Below the pieces are notes generated by a model, which saw only the letters and a list, made by a program, of their open reading frames with translations, did no database searches and was not told where the DNA came from. Below, piece by piece: positions 10,960-14,158 of a stretch of 39,004 nucleotides of DNA. The DNA comes from a virus. The stretch covers positions 1 to 39,004 of IMG/VR virus record IMGVR_UViG_3300025138_006934. The stretch is one strand, 5' to 3'. The stretch's first letter is position 1. Each line of letters begins with the position of its first letter. The position numbers and the translations under genes are program-made.

Positions 10960-11107
10960 ATATGATGGATAAACTTATATAAATGATAATAAGTATTGAA
11001 CCGAAGAAAGCTGATCCTAGAGCAACAGCTGTTACGAATATATTGAATAAGGTTGGATTGAATTCTTCTTCTTTACCTAATCCTAATAAGAGCTTAAGAA
11101 CTATCAC
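10958..11107 (-). CDS. 49-aa membrane protein at the end of the leftward operon
   Basis: A GTG start at 11107 overlaps the tape-measure stop (GTGA), and the TAA stop falls in the T-run of the gp32 terminator. The product starts MIVLKLLLGLGKEEEFNP. It then has one long hydrophobic span (IFVTAVALGSAFFGSILIIIYISLSII) reaching the C-terminus. No family is recognised. Position after the tape measure and one span could suit a lysis accessory or a virion membrane-contact protein. The coupling and hydrophobicity support translation, although the start is not ATG. Confidence 0.5.
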   Translation of the reverse strand: MIVLKLLLGLGKEEEFNPTLFNIFVTAVALGSAFFGSILIIIYISLSII

Positions 11108-12873
11108 CTAGCAGTAACTGAACCTAATATATTAGATGCTCGGGTGAGCGGTGTTTGGATTGTGGTAATGCTAGTAGTAGTAACTTGGCTATTACCTTGT
11201 TTGGTAACTTGAGTAACAATAGAATCACCACCAGACATATTTCCTTTCTCTAATGCATTATCTAAAGATAGATTGTTAATTGCATTAGCATCTATATCCG
11301 GAGTTGTTTCCATCATATCAGCACTTAGTGTTGGTTGAACTGTAGTAAGATCAATCTCAGGTATTTCAGCTTGTTCTTGTACTAGATCTTGTTCAATAGT
11401 TAATTGCTTTTCTTTTTCTTCTTCTAGTGCTTTCTCTTCATCAAGTCTAACTTTATTTTGGCGAGCAGCTTCTTTCGCTTTCTCAGCATTATCTGTAGCC
11501 ATTCTATCAAGCTGTGGCATTTCAACCTCAAAACCTAGGAATTTAGCAAACTTACCGACCAGTCCCATGATCATATTTGATATATCAATAAAGACATTCG
11601 CGAACATTGCCATACCGTCCTTTACGTAAGCCCAGGCAACCTTTATAACATCGAACATAGATCCAAATCCCATTGCATCTCTTATTGCTCTTACTCCTAA
11701 CATTAGTAATCCGAATGCAGCTGCTATAGCTAATATTGGTAATAGTACCGGTGCCATTGCAGCTAGTATTGGAGTCATTGCAGTCATCATACTAGTAAAT
11801 GCCCCAACCATACCAGGTATAAATGAACCCATCATAAAGATTCTAAATACTTTAATTCCTTTTACTAACTTAGAAAGAATACCTATTACTTTCGGTAATA
11901 ACGCTAAGGCAACACCTAACATTAATTGCCATGAGTCACCTAATCCACTCATTACTAAGCTAAAGTCACCTGAGATTATTCCTGATATAATATCAATAAC
12001 TCCAGAAACTTGATTGATTATTCCCTCAACTATAGATTGAAATGCTTCAGGATCTAAGAAGAGTAAGGCAAATCCTACTAATCCAGCTAATATTCCCGCC
12101 CCCGCGAGAGCGCCCGAGATAGCTTCACCAACATTTTCTGCGGTCTTTTCTGTCGCATCAGCTATTTGATATAATCTATCATTAGCTAATTGATTCATTT
12201 TTCTAGCTTCTCTTTGATTCTCTTCTGACTCAGCTCCTGCCTTTATCTCTTCAAGTTGTTTCATTGCAAGATCTTGTGCTTGCATATCTCCAGATTCGAT
12301 AGCGGCTTTTAAATCTGCTTGGGCAGATTCAAATGATACCTTTAATATTTCTGCACGTGCATCAGCTTCTGGATCGTTAAAGAATTCTCCGCTATAGAAA
12401 CCACTATTTAATTGTCTAATCTGATTTTGTAATTCTAATGCTGCGGTAGAATCTGCTTCAAGTAATGATGTTTGTCTTTTATTATCTTCTACTAAGTCTT
12501 GTAAACCACGAACTACATCGTCGTTATTGATTGCTTTCTCTGCAGTCTTTATCTCTTCATCAACACTCTTTTCGAGTTCGGTTAGTTTATCTAATTGATC
12601 GAGGAGGACAGATGTTTTTCTCCCATCAGTATTCTGTACTGTGGTAGCGATTTCATCAAAGAAACCTTCTAGTTGTGAGTGCTTGGCATCAGACGATTTT
12701 GATTCCGTTTCTTTTAACTTATTTGCAACCTCACCTAATTTTGTTAGAAGGTCTTGTTTCTTTCCTTGTTTCTCAGATATAGTATTTGCTCTCTTTAGAG
12801 CTTTATCTGTATCGTTGGACTTTCTTCCTTCTGGACCAGGTTGCGGTGGATTTTTTTTATCGTCTTCTGCCAT
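11104..12873 (-). CDS. 29: Tape measure / baseplate hub protein (gp29-like)
   Basis: The 589-aa protein is almost exactly the length of T4 gp29 (590 aa), the ruler that sets tail length. Residues about 1-245 are charged and strongly helical, with coiled-coil character (KLGEVANKLKETESKSSDAK, ELEKSVDEEIKTAEKAINND). Residues about 250-450 hold several long hydrophobic helices (GALAGAGILAGLVGFALLF, ILAAMAPVLLPILAIAAAFG), as usual for tape measures that insert in the host membrane. The C-terminus is acidic, then Ser/Thr-rich. It lies downstream of gp26 and the gp51-like chaperone, matching the lambda G-GT-H logic. Sequence similarity to T4 gp29 is not obvious by eye; the call rests on length, architecture and context. 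A tail near T4 length would follow. A short GC-rich patch sits at about 12095-12118. Confidence 0.75.
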   Translation of the reverse strand: MAEDDKKNPPQPGPEGRKSNDTDKALKRANTISEKQGKKQDLLTKLGEVANKLKETESKSSDAKHSQLEGFFDEIATTVQNTDGRKTSVLLDQLDKLTELEKSVDEEIKTAEKAINNDDVVRGLQDLVEDNKRQTSLLEADSTAALELQNQIRQLNSGFYSGEFFNDPEADARAEILKVSFESAQADLKAAIESGDMQAQDLAMKQLEEIKAGAESEENQREARKMNQLANDRLYQIADATEKTAENVGEAISGALAGAGILAGLVGFALLFLDPEAFQSIVEGIINQVSGVIDIISGIISGDFSLVMSGLGDSWQLMLGVALALLPKVIGILSKLVKGIKVFRIFMMGSFIPGMVGAFTSMMTAMTPILAAMAPVLLPILAIAAAFGLLMLGVRAIRDAMGFGSMFDVIKVAWAYVKDGMAMFANVFIDISNMIMGLVGKFAKFLGFEVEMPQLDRMATDNAEKAKEAARQNKVRLDEEKALEEEKEKQLTIEQDLVQEQAEIPEIDLTTVQPTLSADMMETTPDIDANAINNLSLDNALEKGNMSGGDSIVTQVTKQGNSQVTTTSITTIQTPLTRASNILGSVTAR

Positions 12874-12883
12874 GGGTATACCC
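12874..12883. repeat. 10-bp perfect palindrome between stop and start codons
   Basis: GGGTATACCC fills the gap between the stop of the holin-like gene (TAG, 12885-12883 on the - strand) and the ATG of the tape measure at 12873. It occupies the ribosome-binding position, where a GG-rich half could be hidden by pairing. It may be chance. Confidence 0.5.
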
Positions 12884-13263
12884 TATTTTCCGTTTCCGTT
12901 AATTTTGTCTTTAGCGGTACCTGCATATAAACCAAACCATGCTGCACCTGCACCAACTACGATACTGATTAAACCTGATTGTTCCATACTAGGGGATTCT
13001 AAATCCATAAACCACATTGTGCAATAGTACAATAGGAATATGTAAACACTTAAAAATGCTCTAGGGAAAATCCTCCACGAATCTACCATGTTTGATAGGT
13101 ATATCCATCTTTGCCAAGGATTTTCTGGTTCAGCATCTGTTTTTAATTGTAAGATCTCCGCTTTAAGAGCAGAATTCTCAGTTACGAGTTCCATGAATTT
13201 ATTAAGATCTATTTCAACCTCATTACGGCTCATGTCACCGCTGAATTGTTCTTTATCGCTCAT
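12883..13263 (-). CDS. Membrane protein with a 3TM-holin-like C-terminus (126 aa)
   Basis: The N-terminal third is acidic and helical (NEVEIDLNKFMELVTENSALKAEILQLK), a likely coiled coil. Then comes a Trp-rich interfacial segment (NPWQRWIYLSNMVDSWR), a membrane span (AFLSVYIFLLYYCTMWFM), a short loop and a second Gly-rich span (GLISIVVGAGAAWFGLYAG) ending in a basic tail. The span-loop-GAAWFGLY arrangement resembles small 3TM-holin-type proteins seen in many phages. Such proteins sit near the tape measure in marine T4-like genomes and may be virion or lysis proteins. The ATG overlaps the stop of the gp51-like frame (ATGA). Function is inferred weakly. Confidence 0.55.
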   Translation of the reverse strand: MSDKEQFSGDMSRNEVEIDLNKFMELVTENSALKAEILQLKTDAEPENPWQRWIYLSNMVDSWRIFPRAFLSVYIFLLYYCTMWFMDLESPSMEQSGLISIVVGAGAAWFGLYAGTAKDKINGNGK

Positions 13264-13403
13264 CGTCTCATTTTCCTTTTTTGTTCTTCAAGCCTTTCGT
13301 TCTCTTTCTTTATGTGCTCCTGCAAGAGAGCAACGTATATCTCCCTCTCCCATGGTATCATATTTTCTAGTTCTGATAAACTATAATTATGATGTTGCAT
13401 CAT
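13260..13403 (-). CDS. 51: gp51-like baseplate hub assembly / tape-measure chaperone frame
   Basis: The independent ORF from ATG 13403 gives 47 aa: MMQHHNYSLSELENMIPWER, then EIYVALLQEHIKKENERLEE and a basic end. The phrase HHNYSLSELENMIPWERE is typical of the short second chaperone frame near tape measures in marine T4-like phages, which I associate with the gp51 slot. The same frame stays open upstream through YLALSHDSLVNHYKLNFAMM to a seven-T run in the end of gp26. No start codon other than ATG 13403/13400 gives the conserved-looking NHYKLNFAM part, so the natural product may be a gp26-gp51 fusion made by -1 frameshifting. The stop TGA overlaps the next ATG. Confidence 0.7.
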   Translation of the reverse strand: MMQHHNYSLSELENMIPWEREIYVALLQEHIKKENERLEEQKRKMRR

Positions 13404-13450
13404 CGCAAAGTTTAGCTTGTAATGGTTTACAAGACTATCGTGCGAGAGGG

Positions 13451-14158
13451 CTAGATAAAAAAACTTTCGAGTCCTTTTAGCTTTACTTCATTTTCTTTTC
13501 CACATTTCACACAACACCAATTGATGTCATGTTCAACAGTTGGCATTTTTTGAAAGAATTCTGAAACTTTAGAAAATTGTCCTGAGCTTAAGCTCTCGAA
13601 AAACGAATTAACTGTTTCTCTTTTTTCATTCTTACAATCATATACCTCTTCTTCGTCATATATGGATTCAGTACAATCAACAATCATTTCGAATACTGAT
13701 TCTACTTTATCAATACCAATCTCTTGGTATTTCTCTGCAGTTGATAAAGATGGAAAGTTAAATGTTATACCTATTTTATCATCTAATGGTATAACATTAG
13801 ATTCTGGTAGATCAGAAACCTCAATGGAATCTAAATCAACCTGTATAGCTGTAACACCATTACATTCTTTATCCTGACATTTCATATTTAGTTCAACCAC
13901 TTCACCAACACTTTTGGCTCTGAGTTGTAAAAACAAATATTCAAAATCGAATATTGTTAGTTTATCTAAATTAATATCATTTACGCAATCTGCAATTACG
14001 CTTTTTAAAGCTCTAAATGTTTGCTTTTGGTCTTTCGACTCTAAAGCAATCATCAATACTTTTTCTTCTTTCACGGTATAAGGTCTAAATTCGACCTCTT
14101 TACCAGTGGACGGAATTTTTGTCAAATAAGTTGCCGTCTTTAATTGTGGCAATGCCAT
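13451..14158 (-). CDS. 26: gp26-like baseplate hub assembly protein
   Basis: The 235-aa protein (T4 gp26 is 208) matches the T4 baseplate hub family. It has an N-terminal strand region with KIPSTGKEVEFRPYTVKEEK, then helices (LIFDFEYLFLQLRAKSVGEVVEL in outline), a C94-x4-C99 pair and a C-terminal C215/C216-x2-C219 knuckle (WCCVKCGKE). These probably form one zinc site that pins the two ends together. gp26 acts in hub assembly around the tape measure, comparable to lambda gpG. The start ATG has a GAGGATA ribosome site. The gene ends ESFFI-stop at a T7 run (13457-13463), which allows a -1 shift into the gp51-like frame. The neighbours are the tube protein upstream and the chaperone and tape measure downstream. 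Confidence 0.85.
   Translation of the reverse strand: MALPQLKTATYLTKIPSTGKEVEFRPYTVKEEKVLMIALESKDQKQTFRALKSVIADCVNDINLDKLTIFDFEYLFLQLRAKSVGEVVELNMKCQDKECNGVTAIQVDLDSIEVSDLPESNVIPLDDKIGITFNFPSLSTAEKYQEIGIDKVESVFEMIVDCTESIYDEEEVYDCKNEKRETVNSFFESLSSGQFSKVSEFFQKMPTVEHDINWCCVKCGKENEVKLKGLESFFI
13457..13463 (-). other. Candidate -1 programmed frameshift heptamer (U UUU UUU)
   Basis: On the - strand the end of gp26 reads AGT TTT TTT ATC TAG, so the zero frame parses the T7 run as U UUU UUU, the canonical X XXY YYZ form. Slipping back one base continues TAT CTA GCC into the gp51-like frame without a stop until 13260. The position matches the G/GT slip site upstream of lambda-type tape measures. Confidence 0.65.

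Follow-up and report, generated by a model that had tools for sequence, protein, structure and literature searches.

Introduction

The stretch of DNA analyzed here (hereafter the window) comprises positions 1 to 39,004 of IMG/VR record IMGVR_UViG_3300025138_006934 and belongs to an uncultivated marine phage. On its minus strand, a gene resembling T4 gene 26 ends a few codons after a run of seven Ts, and a second open frame with similarity to T4 gp51 continues in the -1 register. The question raised by this locus is whether the two frames specify two separate proteins or a short and a long form of a single tail assembly chaperone (TAC). Comparative sequence analysis favors the latter. We put a probability of about 0.9 on the reading that one gene yields both forms by a -1 ribosomal slip on the T7 run, made by a minority of ribosomes, with a Shine-Dalgarno (SD)-like motif probably helping and an RNA stem perhaps doing so.

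Frameshifting in several T4-like groups is reportedly the subject of the abstract of Vladimirov et al., in which T4 genes 26 and 51 are said to be named. That article (Vladimirov, Gautam and Davidson, Virology 2022, 566:9-15) deals with the tail assembly chaperones of T4-like phages. The PRFect paper refers to it for some T4-like phages in which a pair of genes, one short and one a long fusion, takes the place of frameshifting, and PMC12846349 refers to it on poly-T frameshift signals in the TAC-N genes of this phage group. According to these sources, T4-like phages with frameshifted chaperone genes have been described before, with short and long forms like those proposed here for an uncultivated marine phage. 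In the lambda G/GT system, ribosomes shift by -1 shortly before the short chaperone gene ends, and the resulting long form has an additional domain at its C-terminus; G-T frameshifting is described as widely conserved in long-tailed phages, T4 excepted (PMC5009743). The window has the same -1 layout as lambda, but its gene belongs to family PF12322 and its putative slip site is a poly-U heptamer accompanied by an SD-like motif.

Layout of the locus

The short form, gp26 (TAC-N; 13451..14158, minus strand, as are all features described here), is encoded in the zero frame and has 235 aa. In profile searches it matches Pfam PF12322 (T4_baseplate) with E 1.4e-61 and phrog_150 with E 2.8e-67. The gene ends GGA CTC GAA AGT TTT TTT ATC TAG, where the seven Ts (13457..13463) stand in the phase T TTT TTT, just as the sequence-only reading had described, and are followed by ATC TAG (13451..13456), the final zero-frame codon plus the stop at which the unshifted product ends. 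Runs of seven Ts are in themselves nothing special in the window (12 matches vs 33.4 expected). An in-phase T TTT TTY is found a single time in the 11,006 codons of the 32 window ORFs, five codons before the end of gp26.

A -1 shift on the heptamer would open the extension TAC-C (13260..13457), which consists of 65 codons followed by a stop at 13260 and translates from the heptamer as YLALSHDSLVNHYKLNFAMMQHHNYSLSELENMIPWEREIYVALLQEHIKKENERLEEQKRKMRR. The earlier translation of this frame had lost one Q between NFAMM and HHNYS, which has no consequence. Joined to the gp26 part, the tail gives a TAC-NC fusion of 299 aa that reads ...LESFFYLALSHD... over the junction. The tail matches phrog_634, annotated as 'baseplate hub assembly catalyst', with E 9.6e-28 (PHROG profiles). 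Its first ATG, at 13403, lies 18 codons past the slip site, and the -1 frame of the window contains no ATG, GTG or TTG upstream of it; the 18 codons of this pre-ATG stretch occupy 13404..13457. The heptamer is flanked by an SD-like AAGGA (13472..13476), a putative frameshift stimulator located 8 nt to its 5' side, and by a predicted hairpin, CTTGTAA/TTACAAG (13416..13433), which begins 23 nt to its 3' side and is a possible stimulator.

Conservation of the slip site

Relatives of gp26 were gathered from viral contigs using seven queries and from named phages. The resulting collection contains 286 sequences (285 loci and the window), of which six have no gp26 stop inside the locus and 280 were counted. 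One locus (L001) encodes a gp26 identical to that of the window and possibly comes from the same virus. An in-phase T TTT TTY near the gp26 stop is present in 250 of the 280 loci, ending in TTT in 92 and in TTC in 158. In 132 related pairs drawn from 114 late-ATG loci, the heptamer and its preceding base are invariant, final base included, an invariance that the choice of loci partly forces. The sequence-only reading had named relatives lacking the T-run, or having stops between the run and ATG 13403, as evidence that would speak against a frameshift; neither occurs in the window's own group.

Four of the 250 heptamer loci have a truncated -1 frame, which leaves 246 testable loci, 209 of them distinct. 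The SD, codon and selection counts given below are restricted to these 209, and because the 209 were preselected for the heptamer, such counts are uninformative on how frequent the heptamer is.

The 30 loci without T TTT TTY comprise 20 of Ackermannviridae type, seven of T4 type and three single cases. The Ackermannviridae-type loci (L092, L093, L108-L125) keep the -1 tail and end GAR ATT TTC ATY TAA, with no canonical heptamer; in some of them, Marshall not included, an ATG overlaps the stop (TAATG). The gp26 gene of Vibrio phage K483 (L091) ends CTT TTC AAG TAATGG, and its -1 tail is open, with no X XXY YYZ heptamer. In a Menderavirus contig (L285, ~2738-2800), the slip run is one T shorter than in L284 and L089 and gp26 is broken, through either an error or a real deletion. 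The gp26-like frame of Pseudoalteromonas phage XG4 (L099, 3741) ends CGT TTT TTA GTA TAATGG, and its T TTT TTA heptamer is also of the form X XXY YYZ.

Coding selection in the -1 frame

All 246 testable loci have a -1 frame that stays open over 56 codons or more, with lengths of 56 to 73 codons among the 209 distinct ones. When the first 55 residues of the 209 distinct tails are aligned, the sole gap is at one position and affects two sequences. Conservation extends to the residues ahead of the first ATG, which had been judged protein-like from the window alone: H is found at position 5 in 201 of the 209 tails, L at position 8 in 202, N at position 15 in 203 and F at position 16 in every one.

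The pattern of nucleotide change over the same stretch is that of a translated frame. Within codons 1-13, stops occur in none of the 209 loci in the -1 frame vs 203 and 191 loci in the other two frames. The synonymous share of changes, counted from single-base codon differences between related pairs that are not independent of one another, is 0.61 in the -1 frame vs 0.14 and 0.04 in the other frames. It is 0.62 vs 0.19 and 0.08 in the 72 distinct loci that have no ATG, GTG or TTG in their first 14 codons, where synonymous and non-synonymous changes number 34:21 in the -1 frame vs 10:44 and 5:57 in the others. Judged by these comparisons, the -1-frame residues before the first ATG are under protein-coding selection. 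In the records of phages DSL-LC03 and S-WAM1 (L084 and L086), no gene is annotated in the tail region, yet the -1 frame is open.

One gene versus two

The relationship of the fusion to the T4 proteins was evaluated by pairwise and profile alignment. T4 gp26 is similar to the short form (E 1e-13), and T4 gp51 matches the whole fusion (BLASTP E 7e-8, 262 columns). With 29 fused sequences set against eight T4-type gp51 sequences, hhalign aligns residues 12-288 of the fusion to residues 6-251 of gp51 (probability 99.6, E 1.8e-23); on its own, the tail aligns to gp51 201-251 (E 3.1e-10), beginning at the second residue past the slip. T4 gp51 itself matches the gp26 family PF12322 from residue 1 to residue 201 (E 3.9e-52) and phrog_634, the family of the tail, from residue 147 to residue 246, and T4 gp26 and gp51 are related to each other (profile E 6.3e-23; BLASTP 2e-6).

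Since gp51 aligns with the whole fusion and T4 gp26 with the short form, the 'gp51-like' mini-ORF corresponds only to the C-terminal tail of a long chaperone. The sequence-only reading was right that T4 makes gp26 and gp51 from separate genes; its pairing of gp51 with the short ORF has to be replaced by a pairing with the full fusion. Its proposal that a -1 shift joins gp26 to the gp51-like frame is supported by the comparative tests, among them the alignment that runs across the junction. The annotation of the KVP40 record already points out that its small ORF is similar to the C-terminal end of T4 gp51. This comparison corrects a common annotation: in cyanophages and KVP40, the tiny 'gp51' is very probably no standalone protein and represents the end of a long chaperone made by frameshifting.

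Copies of PF12322 were counted in 25 phage records, 17 of which have one copy and eight of which have two (T4, VPA32, KARL-1, SFHK24, Aeromonas 31, phiP4-3, RB43 and KP5). The heptamer is found in 14 of the 17 single-copy genomes vs none of the eight two-copy genomes (Fisher p 1.5e-4, for records that share ancestry and are not independent). All eight two-copy genomes have a gp26 without the heptamer and a tail that is in frame in gp51. In T4, genes 26 and 51 lie on opposite strands and gp26 has no slippery heptamer, whereas the window has a single, heptamer-bearing gene; one PF12322 copy is found in its 39-kb fragment, and the two-gene arrangement of T4 is not encountered there. These genomes allow a clean comparison, provided by nature, of a single recoded gene with a duplicated pair that serves the same purpose; it is useful for asking why T4 can dispense with frameshifting and what sets the proportions of short and long form. 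RB43 (L291, 2501-3794) and KP5 (L292, 2501-3795) have gp51 and gp26 in tandem on one strand, unlike T4, and their short form is only 184-185 aa long.

Signals around the heptamer

Of the 209 distinct loci, 196 have an SD-like motif 5-24 nt ahead of the heptamer, most commonly at a spacing of 8-10 nt; among control windows taken from more upstream parts of gp26, the figure is 25%. The mean anti-SD energy is about -7 kcal/mol at the site vs -0.75 kcal/mol in the controls. The Glu codon of the motif is GAG in 115 of 126 cases vs a background of 26% in gp26 bodies, a preference that supports selection on the RNA. According to PMC5009743, a 5' SD stimulator is known in E. coli dnaX and is estimated to serve 56% of IS-element frameshifts. 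The combination of a heptamer with an upstream SD stimulator in dnaX is like that of the window, but the dnaX heptamer is A_AAA_AAG and its shift shortens the product.

Fold z-scores and stem tests were computed on 85 of the 209 loci, representing clusters at 90% identity. Predicted folds 3' of the heptamer are somewhat more stable than those of shuffled sequences, a moderate effect: the mean z is between -1.7 and -2.0 close to the site, -0.8 at +60 to +120 and -0.3 in an upstream control. For the stem tests the clusters were split into 53 window-like and 31 early-ATG sequences, with one left out. In the window-like group, a predicted stem at +20 to +43 has 68% of its cells paired vs at most 46% when slid; in the early-ATG group, a predicted stem at +5 to +35 has 75% paired vs at most 48% when slid. 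Both stems exceed 500 arm shuffles, and the window-like stem is above shuffles in paired cells and covariation, results that are only suggestive and partly circular because the stems were picked, after viewing the folds, from the very sequences used to test them. The two predicted stems differ between lineages, and no structure common to the 85 sequences, or to the 53 window-like ones, was found with RNAalifold (energy 0 in both cases).

A more speculative proposal, which we hold to be somewhat less probable than its negation, is that marine and related T4-like phages carry a composite recoding cassette, in which T TTT TTY is preceded at 8-10 nt by an SD-like motif and followed by one of at least two lineage-specific stem-loops. 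In early-ATG cyanophage relatives the stem would cover the ATG and so block an independent start. The cassette would have been lost where the long form became a gene of its own, and the Ackermannviridae would have replaced it with another route to the same -1 tail.

Proposed mechanism and alternatives

In the proposed mechanism, most ribosomes would terminate at TAG 13451 and release the short form, and a minority would shift back by a single base on U UUU UUU and proceed to the 299-aa long form with its conserved C-terminal tail. The AAGGA 8 nt upstream probably aids the slip, and the downstream stem-loop perhaps does too. By analogy with lambda gpG and gpGT, the part shared by both forms may bind the tape measure and the tail may recruit the tail-tube protein. 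One point that counts against the mechanism is that, in E. coli, U_UUU_UUU is described as shifting less readily than A_AAA_AAG (PMC5009743). Others are the -1 tails kept by the 20 Ackermannviridae-type loci and K483 in spite of their lacking a canonical heptamer, and the modest downstream fold signal, with stems that vary by lineage and share no consensus.

The alternative that fares best treats the gp51-like tail as a small protein of its own, translated from ATG 13403 or by reinitiation coupled to gp26 termination. GenBank annotates the tail in this way in P-SSM2, S-RSM4, KVP40, Mosig and others, and an ATG stands 2-4 codons past the slip site in 94 of the 209 distinct relatives. The gp26 stop overlaps a start codon (TAATG/TGATG) in KVP40, QD01 and YB07, so reinitiation is possible in these phages, and SD sequences ahead of gene ends may, according to the literature, also serve reinitiation. 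In the window, however, the first possible start is the distant ATG 13403, whose SD value is 0 and which has no ribosome-binding site. Across the 209 loci, an SD of -4.5 kcal/mol or lower precedes the first -1-frame ATG in 9%, vs 12% for random internal positions and 57% for the ATG of gp26 itself. A separate protein also fits poorly with the conserved, coding-selected residues ahead of the ATG and with T4 gp51, which carries the equivalent residues in one continuous frame with a gp26-like domain, and it leaves unexplained why all eight two-gene genomes lack the heptamer. An independent start of the tail was rejected on account of the missing SD and the coding selection ahead of the ATG, and the separate-protein explanation as a whole is considered unlikely.

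The fusion might also be made by transcriptional slippage, with RNA polymerase adding or dropping a base in the T-run. The window does offer seven Ts, and slippage on homopolymers is known in bacteria, where PMC5009743 describes it on runs of nine. Against this, the 158 of 250 heptamers that end in TTC provide a run of just six Ts, and the sites keep the X XXY YYZ codon phase and have an SD-like motif close upstream, as known ribosomal -1 sites do. Transcriptional slippage was rejected in view of the six-T runs in most relatives and is regarded as very unlikely. A dead gene or a sequencing error is an extremely improbable cause of the frame break and was rejected because the break is conserved: homopolymer indels do occur, as in the Menderavirus contig that is one T short, but the identical break is at the identical place in 250 loci, isolate genomes included, with coding selection beyond it.

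Downstream genes and predicted fold

The next gene after the fusion is a 126-aa ORF (12883..13263; phrog_10198, unknown function), whose start overlaps the fusion stop in ATGA, and it is followed by a 589-aa ORF (11104..12873) that is the candidate tape measure. This ORF has no Pfam match, no significant PHROG match and no match among 50,697 phage records at E 0.01. It is weakly similar to an ORF of phiM19 (pairwise E 0.002), which in turn matches tape-measure PHROGs at 1.8e-5, and these links lend weak support to its being a tape measure. The earlier comparison with lambda G/GT ahead of a tape measure can be kept for the recoding arrangement; the 126-aa ORF intervenes between the fusion and the weakly supported tape measure.

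The fold of gp26 was predicted with AlphaFold2 from the window protein and 30 relatives, giving a model with pLDDT 91. Foldseek returned no significant E-value for this model against the PDB, and a sequence search for solved relatives returned chance-level rows only. In structural comparison, the first ~90 residues of the model resemble 3fgx (Z 8.0, 3.7 A over 84 residues), 2ob9, which is the tail assembly chaperone of HK97 (Z 7.1, 3.6 A over 81), and 5ir0 (Z 5.7), with the next unrelated row at Z 2.6. The predicted fold fits that of a tail assembly chaperone, the function that we infer for gp26. The entry 5ir0, matched by model residues 8-90, is ORF19 of a PICI-like element of Vibrio cholerae; judged by this model, a chaperone-like fold may occur in a phage satellite.
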